From IMG/VR virus record IMGVR_UViG_3300047409_000298, positions 1-34,194 of that record: a stretch of 34,194 nucleotides of DNA. One strand, written 5' to 3'. The translations under genes and the position numbers were made by a program. A model generated the notes under the pieces. That model saw only the letters and a list, made by a program, of their open reading frames with translations, made no database searches and had not been told where the DNA came from. Below are positions 3,186 through 30,781 of this stretch, piece by piece (positions within the stretch are counted from its first letter, which is position 1; every line of letters starts with the position of its first letter). This DNA comes from a virus.

Positions 3186-3350
3186 ATGGCGAAACCGAAG
3201 ATGACCCCCCAGGTACACCCCAAAGCAGCGGCGACCGGCGCCGGTGTGAAGAAACAGACGCCGGGGAACGCCGGGTCGCCGGGCCAGTCGAACCACGTGC
3301 CGGTCGTCGGCGCATCCGGGAACTACTCGAGCGAGCAGCAGCAGCAGTGA
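3186..3350 (+). CDS. Small hypothetical head-region protein (54 aa)
   Basis: This short gene lies directly after the capsid hairpin and has a good ribosome site (AAAGGAG, 3176-3182 region) just before ATG 3186. The product is basic at the N-terminus (MAKPKMTPQVHPKAAATG) and Gly/Ser/Gln-rich at the C-terminus, ending in four Gln. It looks disordered, with no recognised domain. The stop overlaps the next start as GTGA. The position suggests a minor capsid, decoration or linker protein; this is inference from location only. Confidence 0.7.
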   Translation: MAKPKMTPQVHPKAAATGAGVKKQTPGNAGSPGQSNHVPVVGASGNYSSEQQQQ

Positions 3351-4006: not shown

Positions 4007-5197
4007 GTGGCTGACCCTGTCGTCAACTTCGGCTACACCACAGTTGCGGTAGCCCCCACGCCCGCGGACTCGGGGACGACCGTCGAGTTCGCCGACCCGG
4101 CGGTGCTGCCCGGAGACCCCGGCGACAGCGGCCCGTACAACCTCGTCATCTGGCCGGCGGATGTTGCGCTGGCGCTCGCGTCGAACGCGGAAATCATCCG
4201 GTGCGTCGCGCTCGCGGCCGGCGTGTTCACGATCGACCGTGAGCAGGAGGGCACGTCGCCCCGGACGATCGTGGTCGGCGACCAGGTAGCGCTCGCAGCC
4301 ACAGCGAAGACGTTCCATGATCTTCTCGCCGCCGCGCAGGCCGTCCCGGCTCTCTCAGCAATCTGGACTGGCGTTCAGATCGACGTGTTCGGCCAGATCA
4401 CCGGTTACGCCGGCGGAACTCCCATCCCAGGCGGCCAGATTCTCGTCGGGAGGAACTCCTCGGGCGCGTTGGAGTTGAGGCAGATTCCCGGGTGGACGTG
4501 GGACGACACCGGAGATGCCGGCTGGTCGGCTATCGCGGTCGGCGGGATCGCCCTGGTCAACGCCAAGTACATCGTCGGCGAAGACCTCGGCCTCGTCATC
4601 GGCACCGCGGGAGTCGTAAGCACCGCGGGTCACCCGATGACGGTCGAGGGTGGCGTCGCCGACCGGGCAGACCATGTCGGCGCAGACCTCCAGCTCGACG
4701 GCGGCCCGAGCCGCGGCAACCAGGTAGGGGGCGACATCGTGTTCCGCACCACCGGGGCCGGGTCGAGCGCGAGCATCGCCGCCGAGCAGATCAAGGCAGG
4801 CGGCACCGGGGCGAACGTCGAGATCAGCGGCACCCTCGCCCAGATCCCGTTCCTTCCGAGCCTCGCTCCTATCCAGGGGGCAGTCGATGAGGTTCCGCTC
4901 GTCACCGACGCCGCAGCGCAGGCGGTCACGTTCAACGTGGACGGCACCATCACCGGCGACACCGGCTCCGGTGGCACGAACACCTGGGACCCCACCACCG
5001 GCGCGTACAGCTTCAGCTTCGCCGGAGCCTCAACCGGCCCCGTAAACGCCGCCTACGTGATCGAAGGCAAGAACGCTTTCGTCGAGCAGGCACGGCTACG
5101 CGCCTCCGACGGAGCCCTACTCATGAAACCCCCCACCTCCGACCCCAGCATCCCCGGTGTGGTCTGGAACAACGCCGGCACCCTGGCGATCTCATGA
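4007..5197 (+). CDS. Structural protein, putative head fibre or tail-fibre-like
   Basis: This 396-residue protein begins with a domain seen in many actinobacteriophage virion proteins: [18 protein letters not shown] near the start, then [19 protein letters not shown] and [20 protein letters not shown]. The middle and C-terminus are Gly/Ala/Thr-rich beta repeats, as in fibre shafts and tips. The start is GTG 4007, two bases after the upstream stop; the open frame extends upstream but there reads an Arg-rich shadow. It ends with ATGA overlapping the next gene. Because it sits among head genes, a head fibre or head decoration is my preferred reading, with tail fibre as the alternative. Confidence 0.8.
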
Positions 5198-5499
5198 TCG
5201 GCTCCTACGCCATCGGCCAACTGTACGTCGGCCAGACCTACCCGCAACTCGGCGAGGTCATCCTCGTCTTGGACCACTACCGCGGCACCCCCAACCTCGC
5301 CGTCGGCCAAGGCAGCCCCTCCGGCGGCGTCACCGCCGGCACGCCCGCAGGCGGCACCGGAGTAGGGGCACCCGCCGGCGGGGCCGCAGCAGCCTTGCCA
5401 GGCGGCGGCAGCGGCATAGGAGCACCCGCCGGGGGTGTCGCCGTGGGCGCCCCCGCAGAAACCGGACGGTACGCCCCACCAACACCGGAGCAAACATGA
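5194..5499 (+). CDS. Gly/Ala/Pro-repeat small structural protein (101 aa)
   Basis: Residues 1-38 form a short hydrophobic domain ([20 protein letters not shown]). The rest repeats degenerate [15 protein letters not shown]-like units rich in Gly, Ala and Pro, a flexible or collagen-like tail. Both ends overlap neighbours by ATGA, so it is translated with the fibre-like gene upstream and the fusion gene downstream. It may be a fibre tip or surface-exposed decoration. No family assignment is possible by eye. Confidence 0.75.
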
Positions 5500-25655: not shown

Positions 25656-26212
25656 CCGACCTGTCCTCCCTCACCGTGCCCGAACTCGCGGAGAAGGTGT
25701 TAGCGATAGTCGGACCCGCTGGGCCAGCCTTCGGGCGAACGACCGATATGTACCGGCAGGGCCGCGCCGCCCTCGCCGAGCTTGACCGCCGCGCCGCGCT
25801 TGTCGAGCCAGGAACAGGCGCTGAGGACACGGAGGAGTACCGGGTTGTCGTTCTCTACAACGAACTTCTAGAGGCCCGTGCGGAAGCACTCGCGGAGGCG
25901 CTAGAGCGAACCGCTGCTTGTGTCACAGCCGAGGCGGAAGAACGGGCGCGACAGGAGGTTAGGGCCAATGCTGCCGAGGCCCGGGCGGAAGCACTCGCGG
26001 AGGCGCTGGAAGCACTCACAGGGGAACTCGACGCTCTCCACCGCGAGAAACTGAAGAACACTGACGCGCTGCTCTTGCTCGACCGTGCCTGCGTTGAGGT
26101 AGCCCGCTACCGGGGAGAGAAGCCGAAGGAGTCTGCCGACTGGATGCACTCCTGCCCTGACTGTCCCGGCCACCCGTTCCCCGAACACGAAGGCGACCTG
26201 GTCGGGCTGTGA
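25652..26212 (+). CDS. Coiled-coil protein with internal repeat (186 aa)
   Basis: GTG 25652 overlaps the Cys-rich gene stop. Residues 70-140 are a long Ala/Glu/Leu coiled coil with the repeat unit EARAEALAEALE occurring twice, 35 residues apart. The C-terminus carries SCPDCPGHPFPEHEGD, a possible half zinc site. The role is unknown. The end overlaps a small secreted protein gene. Confidence 0.68.
   Translation: MTDLSSLTVPELAEKVLAIVGPAGPAFGRTTDMYRQGRAALAELDRRAALVEPGTGAEDTEEYRVVVLYNELLEARAEALAEALERTAACVTAEAEERARQEVRANAAEARAEALAEALEALTGELDALHREKLKNTDALLLLDRACVEVARYRGEKPKESADWMHSCPDCPGHPFPEHEGDLVGL
25871..25906 (+). repeat. Internal direct repeat, copy 1
   Basis: These 36 bases match 25976-26011 at 33 of 36 positions. 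The copies are 105 bases (35 codons) apart, in frame inside the coiled-coil gene, and encode EARAEALAEALE. Confidence 0.9.
25976..26011 (+). repeat. Internal direct repeat, copy 2
   Basis: Second copy of the 36-base unit at 25871-25906, in the same reading frame. It points to a segmental duplication that lengthened the coil by heptad-compatible 35 residues. Confidence 0.9.
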
Positions 26213-26364
26213 GGCTGGCCGTCCTCGCCGCCGCCGCAACCCTTCTGCTCGCCGCAACCGCGGCAGGCGACACCCCCCACGTGGTCTGCCACGAATCCGC
26301 GCCGGCTGCTGGCGGCGTGTCGTGGGGGATCGGAACGACGATCGTCTGCGAGGGTGGCCGATGA
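26209..26364 (+). CDS. Small secreted protein (51 aa)
   Basis: GTG 26209 overlaps the upstream stop, and the stop overlaps the integrase ATG. Residues 1-20 form a typical signal peptide (MRLAVLAAAATLLLAATAAG with an AxA-type end). The mature part is about 31 residues with two Cys (HVVCHESAPAAGG, GTTIVCEGG) that could form one disulfide. The target is unknown. Confidence 0.6.
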   Translation: MRLAVLAAAATLLLAATAAGDTPHVVCHESAPAAGGVSWGIGTTIVCEGGR

Positions 26365-27386
26365 GCAGCGCCGCGCTCGAGTTCCGCTTGACCGCGCGAG
26401 AGCTAGCACCGATGATCCGCCAGTCCTTGAAGGACAAGCGCTATAGGGCTACCGCCCTTGGCGCGCTCGTGGGGCGGTACATCCGATGGTTTCGGAATGA
26501 AGCGGGCGCGACCCCTAGCTCCGTGCGCGATTACGAGGGCGCACTCGCACGCATGGCGCTCACCCTCGCCGACAAAGACCCCATCGAGATCACCCTCGAC
26601 GACCTCCGCGAAGTCATCGACCTCTGGGCCGACAACGAACCCGCCACCCGCGCCAAGGTCACGAGCATCCTCCGGTCGTTCTGGGAATGGGCCGAAGAAG
26701 AAGGACAGGTTCCGTTCAACCCCGCCACCCGGCTACGCCGCCCCAAGAAGCCAAAGAAGACCCCGAGGTTGCTCCAGGTCGGCACCGACGCCCGGATCCT
26801 CACCGCCGCCGGCAGCGCACGCGACCGCCTCGCCGCGCTCCTCCTGCTCGACTGCGGCATCCGACGCGGAGAGCTCGCAGGCATCCAGGCGCGCGACCTC
26901 GACCTCGCCCGCAGACAGGTCACAGTCACCGGCAAGGGGCGCAAGCAGCGTGTGATCCCTTTGCGCGGCCGGATCGTGCTCGCAGCCGAGGAATACCTGC
27001 TCGACGAGCTCCCCCTCATCGGCCGGCAGCCCGAACCCGACGACTTCCTTCTCTACCCCGAGTGGCGGACACCCGACGGGCGCGTCTACAAGGCCGAGCC
27101 GAAGCAGCCGAAGAAAGGCAACGGGATCCACCGATGGTGGTACCGGCAGCTCGAGGACGCCGGCCTGGTCGGCAAGAACGTCCGCTCCGGGTTGAACATG
27201 CACCGGGCTCGGCACACGTTCGCCCAGGACGTTCGACGCGCCCACCGGGACATCGGGGCTGTCCAGCACATTCTCGGCCACTCCGACCCGACCACGACGA
27301 TCTCGCTCTACGGGGGCTACGCGCAGGAAGACCTCGAGGCCGCGATGGACGACTTCGCCCGTGACAAGCGAGAGGCCGCCGAGTAA
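26361..27386 (+). CDS. int: Tyrosine integrase
   Basis: The 341-residue site-specific recombinase inserts the phage genome into the host. The SAM-like core-binding domain lies at about 30-125. The catalytic domain carries the first Arg in CGIRRGELAG (R168), Lys candidates near GKGRKQRVIP, the HxxR motif in MHRARHTFAQ (H281, R284), His in LGHSDPTTT (H307), and the nucleophile Tyr in ISLYGGY (Y317). ATG 26361 overlaps the small secreted gene. The attachment site follows within 50 bases of its stop, the usual int-attP arrangement. Confidence 0.93.
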   Translation: MSSAALEFRLTARELAPMIRQSLKDKRYRATALGALVGRYIRWFRNEAGATPSSVRDYEGALARMALTLADKDPIEITLDDLREVIDLWADNEPATRAKVTSILRSFWEWAEEEGQVPFNPATRLRRPKKPKKTPRLLQVGTDARILTAAGSARDRLAALLLLDCGIRRGELAGIQARDLDLARRQVTVTGKGRKQRVIPLRGRIVLAAEEYLLDELPLIGRQPEPDDFLLYPEWRTPDGRVYKAEPKQPKKGNGIHRWWYRQLEDAGLVGKNVRSGLNMHRARHTFAQDVRRAHRDIGAVQHILGHSDPTTTISLYGGYAQEDLEAAMDDFARDKREAAE

Positions 27387-27986
27387 GTGTTCCCCCGGCA
27401 GCCTCCCCAACCCCGCATGGTTAAGCCATTGATGGAGGCGGCGGGAATCGAACCCGCGCAAGATGCCTCCGGTCGCCTCGCAGAACGCCTCTGGTCGAAG
27501 GTCGACAAGCGTGGCCCGCAGGACTGCTGGCTCTGGCGCGGTTCACGCGGCATGTGCGGCAAGGGGCATGGGCAGATTGGGCTCGGACGGCGCAAACGCC
27601 TCCAGACCCATCGTGTCTCATGGACGCTGCAGCACGGAGCAATCCCCCCCGGTCTCCTGGTTCTCCACCACTGCGACGTCCCTCACTGCGTCAACCCCGC
27701 GCACCTATTTCTCGGGACGCAAAAGGACAACATGCAGGATGCCAAAGCCAAAGGGCGCGTCCGCAGTGTCAACCCGTCAGGCGACGCTCATTGGACGAGG
27801 AAACGACCGGAGCGACTTGCTCGAGGTGAGAGGCATGGGAGCGCAAAACTAACCGCCGATCAGGTGCGCGAGATCCGCGAGCGCTACGCGAGCGGGGTGC
27901 CACAAAAGCATCTCGTAAACGACTACTCGGTTTCTAAGTCTCAGATCAGCAAGATCCTCCTGGGCCGCTCGTGGGCTGGAGCATGA
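27387..27986 (+). CDS. HNH endonuclease with C-terminal HTH, reading frame running through attP
   Basis: The nuclease covers about 45-115: DCWLWRGSRG, THRVSWTLQHGAIPPGLLVL, HHCDVPHCVNPAHLFLGT, an HNH motif of the His-Asn-His homing type. The C-terminal 55 residues carry an HTH repeat (SAKLTADQVREIRERYASG, SKSQISKILLGRSW). Possible starts are GTG 27387 (next to the integrase stop), ATG 27417 and ATG 27432. None has a clear ribosome site, and no start codon lies between attP and the nuclease domain. Residues near 16-23 (MEAAGIEPA) are the known translation of an antisense tRNA 3' end. Integration would cut this frame near its start. Confidence 0.82.
   Translation: MFPRQPPQPRMVKPLMEAAGIEPAQDASGRLAERLWSKVDKRGPQDCWLWRGSRGMCGKGHGQIGLGRRKRLQTHRVSWTLQHGAIPPGLLVLHHCDVPHCVNPAHLFLGTQKDNMQDAKAKGRVRSVNPSGDAHWTRKRPERLARGERHGSAKLTADQVREIRERYASGVPQKHLVNDYSVSKSQISKILLGRSWAGA
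27433..27457 (-). other. attP core: 3' end of a tRNA/tmRNA-like sequence
   Basis: Read on the minus strand, these 25 bases form a T-arm (GCGGG, loop TTCGATT, CCCGC), the acceptor strand CGCCTCC, and a discriminator A, i.e. the 3' end of a tRNA or tmRNA. No other part of a tRNA is present. It lies 47 bases after the integrase stop, so it is the likely phage attachment core. The acceptor fits a GGAGGCG or GGGGGCG 5' end, as in some tRNA-Ser or tmRNA genes; the exact host gene is not determined. Confidence 0.82.
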
Positions 27987-28363
27987 AGTTGGCCATTGCA
28001 TTTGCGGCGCTTGTCGTGCTCGTGAGCGCTACCGAGGCCAAGGCGTCCTACTACACCAAAGCGAAGAACGTCGTCTACTCCACCTTCCCCGCGGCAACAC
28101 GGGACGCCGCCCTCCGGGTGGTCGGCTGCGAGACCGGCCATGACTACACCCCGTGGTCGTACAACTCGAGCGGGGCGAGCGGCCTGTTCCAGATCCTGAC
28201 CGGGAACGCCGGCCGGGTGCTGTTCTACAGGGGGCAGCGGCTGACGATCGTCGGCTGGTACCACGGTGAGAACCTGCTGTTTAACCCTTGGTACAACGCG
28301 CGGGTCGCGTTGTTTCTGTCGCACGGTGGGACAGATTGGGGCGAGTGGTCATGCCAGCCGTAA
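27983..28363 (+). CDS. Secreted lysozyme/transglycosylase-like protein
   Basis: The 126-residue protein has a signal peptide (residues 1-26, MKLAIAFAALVVLVSATEAK then AS) and a compact lysozyme-superfamily domain: VVGCETGHDYTP with a likely catalytic Glu, SGASGLFQI, and NPWYNARVALFLSHGG near the end. It would act in the cell wall without a holin. ATG 27983 overlaps the HNH stop (ATGA). It may be a lysogenic-conversion or entry-related wall enzyme. Confidence 0.83.
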   Translation: MKLAIAFAALVVLVSATEAKASYYTKAKNVVYSTFPAATRDAALRVVGCETGHDYTPWSYNSSGASGLFQILTGNAGRVLFYRGQRLTIVGWYHGENLLFNPWYNARVALFLSHGGTDWGEWSCQP

Positions 28364-28392
28364 CAAGTTCCGCCAGCAGGGAAAGACAGGGG

Positions 28393-28608
28393 GTGATTCC
28401 AGAGTTCAACTGCGGCGCGGAACGGAATCCCGCTGCGGTTGCACTCACGCAGACGACTGACATGGAGTGTCAGAGGGACCGGGGTTGTTCTGGCCCCGGT
28501 CCCCGCATCTCCAAAGCGGTCGACCTCCTGGAACGCCAGGCGTGCAACTGCGTCCGCAAGATCCAGTGTCTCCGCTGCGAACTGCTGGAGCTCCTCCGTG
28601 CAGCCTGA
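28393..28608 (+). CDS. Small Cys-containing protein (start uncertain)
   Basis: AGGGAAAG lies about 8 bases before GTG 28393. In-frame ATGs at 28351 (overlapping the lysozyme gene) and 28462 are alternatives. The C-terminal part looks truly coding, with helix ISKAVDLLERQACNCVRKIQ then CLRCELLELL and a CxC/CxxC Cys set. The first half has poorer codon bias and contains a perfect hairpin (28475-28503). No function is recognised. It overlaps the next gene by 11 bases. Confidence 0.55.
   Translation: MIPEFNCGAERNPAAVALTQTTDMECQRDRGCSGPGPRISKAVDLLERQACNCVRKIQCLRCELLELLRAA
28475..28503 (+). terminator. Perfect 10-bp hairpin
   Basis: GGGACCGGGG (28475-28484) pairs exactly with CCCCGGTCCC (28494-28503) around a 9-base loop. 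No T-run follows. It sits about 110 bases after the secreted lysozyme gene and could attenuate transcription, or hide the start region of the following small gene. Confidence 0.5.
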
Positions 28609-29762: not shown

Positions 29763-30335
29763 ATGGCGTGGATCGACGACCGCATCTGGTGCCACACCAA
29801 AATCACCGACCTGTCCGACAAAGCGTTCCGAGTGTGGATAAGCAGCATCGCCTACAGCGCCGGTCTCGGCACCAAAGGCCACCTCTCAGAAGCCCAACAG
29901 CGGCTCGTCGGCGCTACCCCCAGAATCCACAGGGAGCTACTCACAGCCGGGCTATGGGATCAAATCTCCGGCGAATCTAACGACCAAAATTCCGCAGAAA
30001 TTCTCATTCACGACTGGAACGAACACAACGAAAAACGCGACGCACGACGCGAGGCAGATCGGCTTAGGAAAAGGGCTCAACGCCAAATGTCCGCAGGACA
30101 GTCCAACGGACAGTCCGCAGGAACGTCCAGTGGAACGTCTACTGGAACGGCGCGCGTTGAAGGTAGTGAAGGTAGTGACATCCCTAAAGACCCCTTACGG
30201 AACAAAGTCAAAACCGAAGGCTACGCCTGCATGTGCGGACGAACCTTCAAGGCTGAGCGCGAGCTCGCCCTCCACATCCAGAACGTCCACGACGGCCCAC
30301 CCGTCCCACTCACCCAAGCCGAGCTCCACGCTTGA
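29763..30335 (+). CDS. Replication-type winged-helix protein with C-terminal zinc knuckle
   Basis: The 190-residue protein begins with a winged-helix-like region found in phage replication initiators or DnaD-like proteins (MAWIDDRIWCHTKITDLSDK, AFRVWISSIAYSAGL, LLTAGLWDQI). Residues about 80-145 are charged, then low-complexity Ser/Gly/Thr/Gln repeats. The C-terminus has YACMCGRTFKAERELALHIQ then NVH, a C2H2-like finger with CxC spacing. It may bind the phage origin and load host replisome parts. ATG 29763 follows the Hjc-like stop directly. Confidence 0.75.
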   Translation: MAWIDDRIWCHTKITDLSDKAFRVWISSIAYSAGLGTKGHLSEAQQRLVGATPRIHRELLTAGLWDQISGESNDQNSAEILIHDWNEHNEKRDARREADRLRKRAQRQMSAGQSNGQSAGTSSGTSTGTARVEGSEGSDIPKDPLRNKVKTEGYACMCGRTFKAERELALHIQNVHDGPPVPLTQAELHA

Positions 30336-30781
30336 ACACTCCTCTCAAACTCGACCAGGCGCGGCTTCGACCCCACCTCCGAAAACCGGAGGAACCCCAA
30401 CCACCTGCCGCACCAACCCCAGCACGCGGCTACTCCCCACGTCGCGTCAACCACCCACGCGCACTTCAAGGAGCCGGCGTCAAGATCCTCAGCCGCAACC
30501 GAGGCAGACTCCTCTCCCCACCCCTTCGCCCAGCGAACACCTTTCCTCCCCGAACAACCCGCAAAGAAGTCCTCAGAAAGTGCCAACACAAGTGCTACCT
30601 CTGCAACCGGCAGCTCGTCATGGCGACGCTCGAGGTCGACCACGTCATCGCAGTCGCACGCGGCGGAAGCAACGCACCGGCGAACCTGCTCGCCTCATGC
30701 CGACCATGCAACCAACTCAAGACCGACCACATCGTCGCGTTCAGCATCAAGACCAGAAGGCCACACTTCATCCCGTGGTAA
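30332..30781 (+). CDS. HNH endonuclease (149 aa)
   Basis: The N-terminal 70 residues are Pro/Arg-rich. The HNH domain follows: KCYLCNRQLVMATLEVDHVI, AVARGGSNAPANLLASCRPC, NQLKTDH, with the two zinc-binding CxxC pairs and the DH pair. TTG 30332 overlaps the upstream stop (TTGA). Such HNH proteins assist packaging or act as homing nucleases. A promoter-containing gap follows it. Confidence 0.82.
   Translation: MNTPLKLDQARLRPHLRKPEEPQPPAAPTPARGYSPRRVNHPRALQGAGVKILSRNRGRLLSPPLRPANTFPPRTTRKEVLRKCQHKCYLCNRQLVMATLEVDHVIAVARGGSNAPANLLASCRPCNQLKTDHIVAFSIKTRRPHFIPW

Follow-up and report, generated by a model that had tools for sequence, protein, structure and literature searches.

The sequence analysed here, referred to below as the window, is the whole 34,194 nt of the IMG/VR record IMGVR_UViG_3300047409_000298. 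It is classed as a virus record by the search tool, forms a complete circular phage record in which the first 127 bases are identical to the last 127, and is the genome of a temperate phage. The region of interest carries, on the plus strand, a tyrosine integrase gene (nt 26361–27386; PF00589, 2.5e-23), the phage attachment site (attP), an HNH endonuclease gene and a lysozyme-like gene. The integrase open reading frame (ORF) opens at GTG26322, and alignment with relatives suggests ATG26361 as its start; its stop codon occupies nt 27384–27386, and the attP core only begins at nt 27433. The HNH ORF (nt 27387–27986, plus strand; 199 aa) ends in an ATGA overlap (nt 27983–27986) with the start of the lysozyme-like gene (nt 27983–28363, plus strand; PF18896, 7.7e-5, below gathering score; signal-peptide-like start), just as an original prediction from the window had described. 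That prediction also placed the 3′ end of a transfer RNA or transfer-messenger RNA (tmRNA), acting as attP core, within the HNH frame, and proposed that integration would deprive the nuclease gene of its start.

The minimal attP core, TGGAGGCGGCGGGAATCGAACCCGCG (nt 27433–27458, minus strand), matches the antisense strand of a tmRNA 3′ end exactly, nt 27433 being the complement of discriminator A73. A scan of IMG/VR with the core alone gave at least 119 loci with an exact match. ARAGORN called tmRNA genes at 43 of the core loci listed; the call at locus L104 was rejected as false because an integrase adjoins the core there, and in the remaining 42 intact genes, all among the matches listed, the core is terminal. 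In the window itself, RF00023 gave a partial match (nt 27430–27492, minus strand; 31 bits, below gathering score), and the core together with its right flank had no match in IMG/VR. At least 12 phages carry the core and a related integrase (30–67% identical), one of them with a one-base core variant; the core is to the right of the integrase in 11 and at the opposite end in the other, an integrated provirus. The window integrase shares 67–68% identity with that of provirus G012/L105, 48% with that of L183 (where the one-base variant lies right of the integrase) and 40% with those of L058 and L106, and at 10 of the loci listed an integrase 30–41% identical lies left of the core. These relatives were reached via the core pattern; the integrase protein alone, as query against viral and genome collections, gave no usable relative, and a DNA search of INPHARED with nt 26200–28400 returned a single short match (76%). 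With its tyrosine integrase beside a tmRNA-end core, the region has the make-up of an integration module. The core is genuine, and the module would insert at the 3′ end of the host tmRNA gene.

Two relatives show the integrated arrangement, and the left and right junctions (attL and attR) are known from these rather than from the window phage. In G012 (isolate-genome record IMGVR_UViG_2831922129_000001), the core is at the far left (position 1148), where it follows a fragment of an IS21 helper gene and an ORF that belongs to no known family; the integrase closes the record at 43142; judged by gene order within the record, the left flank is probably host DNA. In G002 (3300031576_000948), host-type P450 and methyltransferase genes lie left of core 1 (position 3251), and at the other end the integrase is followed by core 2 (position 38695) with the same right flank, the two cores being 35,444 bp apart. 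Immediately left of the core, five bases of the G012 flank are the same as in the window (ATTGA/TGGAGG, the slash marking the core edge), an agreement with a chance of about 1 in 1,000. The probable extended core, ATTGATGGAGGCGGCGGGAATCGAACCCGCG (nt 27428–27458, plus strand), comprises the bases also present at the host–phage junction of G012/L105, the sole IMG/VR match to the extended pattern. The left arm of attP (46 nt, nt 27387–27432, plus strand) contains CCGCATGGTTAAGCC, of which L090/L157 have a nearly identical copy. The right arm was judged not to be conserved: against a model of the right-arm motif, the score of the window is no better than that of about 9% of random positions, and the motif of most relatives is not recognisable there. 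Among the other attP loci, L158, L104 and L076 have similar segments of about 30 bp on both sides of the core, each ending in GCAGGGA, which are probably integrase arm sites. In L058, L106, L158, L104 and L120, an ATG or GTG whose frame stays open across the core sits exactly 35 nt to the left of it; this codon directly follows the integrase stop in L058, follows it after one base in L104, has a strong Shine-Dalgarno match in L058 and L106, and could belong to an arm site or represent a coupled start.

The HNH ORF, with its HNH_3 domain at residues 74–117 (E = 1e-11), runs in frame through the core as had been predicted. By itself this is little evidence, since the core is free of stops in all three antisense frames (MEAAGIEPA, GGGGNRTR and WRRRESNPR). 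Left of the conserved part of the HNH family, the possible starts are GTG27387 (directly after the integrase stop), ATG27417, TTG27429 and ATG27432. All lie at or before the core, the left arm holding the first three and the A of ATG27432, a codon that straddles the core edge with its TG inside. The original prediction had placed three of these starts correctly and overlooked TTG27429; its statement that no start falls between the core and the nuclease domain did not hold, as ATG27552 precedes the Pfam HNH_3 domain. That codon is an unlikely start because it lies to the right of the family's conserved CWLW motif.

Several comparisons favour the 184-aa form that begins at the core-borne ATG (nt 27432–27986, plus strand; PF13392, 8.9e-12; phrog_1872). 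Annotated HNH homologs begin at residues 19–24 of the 199-aa ORF, inside the core, in four of the five phages read, and at about residue 34 in the fifth, Ab22. Residues 15–130 of the 184-aa form align with positions 18–133 of 166 in the phrog_1872 profile, so its N-terminal length is normal, and similarity to IMG/VR relatives of the HNH protein mostly begins at residues 23–47, at the core end or beyond. On these alignments, a start at the core is a natural one for the family, and ATG27432 is likely the minimal start codon. The HNH_3 motif, zinc-loop similarity and helix-turn-helix-like C-terminus (PHROG matches) are intact over 184 codons without a stop, and with PF13392 over cut-off and a C-terminal DNA-binding region the product has the composition of a free-standing HNH_3 endonuclease. 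No near-identical relative lacking the gene, the kind of allele that a homing enzyme would cut and enter, was found. A second HNH gene is present in the window at nt 30332–30781 (HNH_5, E = 1.1e-11), about 1 kb before the terminase gene.

What integration does to this start depends on the host base that comes to adjoin the core. This base is the complement of tmRNA position 74, which is the first C of the CCA tail where that is encoded, as in many genes. It is G in 37 and A in five of the 42 tmRNA genes, never C or T, and the junction base is A in integrated G012/L105 and G in integrated G002. The recombined junction reads nTG-GAG-GCG in the HNH frame, and with n being G or A, the codon would become GTG or ATG after integration. 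On this evidence the gene would not be cut into a startless piece, as had been supposed; the in-frame start that the original prediction proposed to look for at the new junction is present, as seen in relatives and other hosts rather than in a lysogen of the window phage. Its expectation of a lost start applies to the integrase-linked GTG27387, which is separated from the gene; ATG27432 would be kept as a start, the host supplying its first base. If the host of the window phage resembles that of G012, TTG27429 and ATG27432 would both lie within the shared segment and be kept unchanged. Integration would exchange the promoter, the ribosome-site context and GTG27387 rather than the coding start: judging from the related junctions, the 184-aa product would keep an ATG or GTG start, and the longer 199-aa form would be lost. 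This is an arrangement rather than a demonstrated on/off switch.

The likely explanation is a tmRNA integration module in which a free-standing HNH gene has been inserted between attP and the lysozyme-like gene, with a coding start that lies in the core and is kept on integration. The core, the frame, the starts of homologs and the junction bases in relatives are read from sequence; the insertion history, co-transcription and expression are what we infer. The temperate phage would insert at the 3′ end of the host tmRNA gene, and the homing-type HNH gene would have come to begin its coding sequence in the core. In the circular phage, HNH would probably be co-transcribed with the integrase, no intrinsic terminator being predicted on the plus strand between the integrase and the HNH domain, and GTG27387 may also serve translation. 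In the integrated state, the coding sequence and its in-frame ATG or GTG would remain at attL, whereas host DNA downstream of the tmRNA gene would take the place of the promoter, the ribosome-site context and the integrase link. Support comes from phages retrieved with the core as sole query, in which a related integrase adjoins it, and from the integrase relatives, none of which has an HNH gene right of the core; within a few hundred bases after it they carry other genes, lysozyme-like in several. Insertions of free-standing HNH genes next to lysin genes are on record for Cluster J and other mycobacteriophages, at least 18 having been reported in or around lysis cassettes (PMC3706429). Several points weigh against this explanation. 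ATG27432 lacks a Shine-Dalgarno match (−2.2 kcal/mol, random median −3.0), and the better-equipped GTG27387 (−5.8 kcal/mol, moderate), the only candidate with a passable match, would go on integration. No lysogen of the window phage was found, its own attL being unseen, and no close relative with the HNH gene was found. Lacking a recognisable right-arm motif, the window attP may also work differently or be partly disabled.

The ribosome-site match of GTG27387, right after the integrase stop, also speaks for a rival reading in which only the circular phage makes HNH and its coupled lysozyme, integration removing both start and transcript. The ATGA overlap fits such a switch, and host transcription into the prophage end looks weak, since the host gene beside attL points away from the prophage in G002 and a strong hairpin precedes the core in G012. 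Promoter loss at attL may indeed silence both genes in the prophage. Such loss is, however, generic to any operon spanning attP and needs no special design, and every related junction still offers an ATG or GTG in frame. Leaderless mRNAs are, moreover, commonly translated in Actinobacteria. We regard a circle-only switch as unlikely. The lack of a Shine-Dalgarno match at ATG27432 would also suit a decaying passenger, a gene deprived of its own start and ribosome site by the insertion, with a fused frame that yields little or no protein whether the phage is circular or integrated; no close relative with the gene was found, and this tmRNA end naturally leaves its antisense frames open. The intact domains and stop-free 184 codons argue to the contrary, and we consider decay quite improbable.

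A wider reading, to which we give the least credence, is that phages of this integrase family habitually read the gene to the right of attP from the integrase transcript, through the tmRNA core; such a gene would be expressed from the circular form, and integration would silence or re-start it. Examples would be HNH in the window, a zinc finger in L183 and a small membrane-like protein in G012, and this would be a 5′-end counterpart, for a cargo or early gene, of the BPs-type switches discussed below. In G012 (L174:248–433), an ATG formed where host DNA meets the core begins a frame of 61 aa that includes a hydrophobic stretch, and there is no other start ahead of that stretch. In L183 (IMGVR_UViG_3300036835_000185, nt 5060–5310), the zinc-finger gene (PF24623, E = 2.8e-6, over cut-off) lies before a lysozyme-like gene and crosses the variant core TGGAGACGG... 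in a different frame; its starts precede the core by 62 and 50 nt, and no further in-frame start is available until after the zinc motif cysteines. L183 is thus a better candidate than the window for start loss on integration, and a directly testable one. Among 11 core-crossing frames of other attP loci, no Pfam domain above cut-off was found except in L183, and most of these frames were taken as spurious.

Genes that share DNA with att cores are of interest because integration can change their expression without a regulator. Known cases concern the 3′ end of a repressor or a split integrase, and a start rebuilt from a tmRNA tail would be a 5′-end case; a peptide antisense to a tRNA, such as MEAAGIEPA, is usually spurious but can be a genuine coding start if fused to a real domain. 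A close likeness is that to mycobacteriophage BPs and relatives (PMC4557955, PMC9262239), where a tRNA-end core likewise lies inside a coding frame, beside a tyrosine integrase, and the adjoining host base alters a codon at the core edge. In BPs-type integration-dependent immunity that base turns a cysteine codon into a stop (PMC9262239), whereas in the window the core is at the 5′ end of the gene, the junction would rebuild a start codon, and the gene affected encodes an HNH_3 endonuclease rather than a repressor controlling immunity. In the SSV-type (suicidal) archaeal integrases, the integrase gene is split by its own att site into int(N) and int(C) (PMC8371274). There too an att site inside a gene means that integration exchanges part of it, but the window integrase is intact, the core lies outside it, and the exchange would be confined to the region upstream of the next gene. 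The window case shares geometry with these two systems, not outcome. As with the free-standing actinophage HNH genes near lysins (PMC3706429), HNH is inserted precisely upstream of a lysin-type gene; in the window, however, the insertion abuts attP and the core is used as coding sequence.
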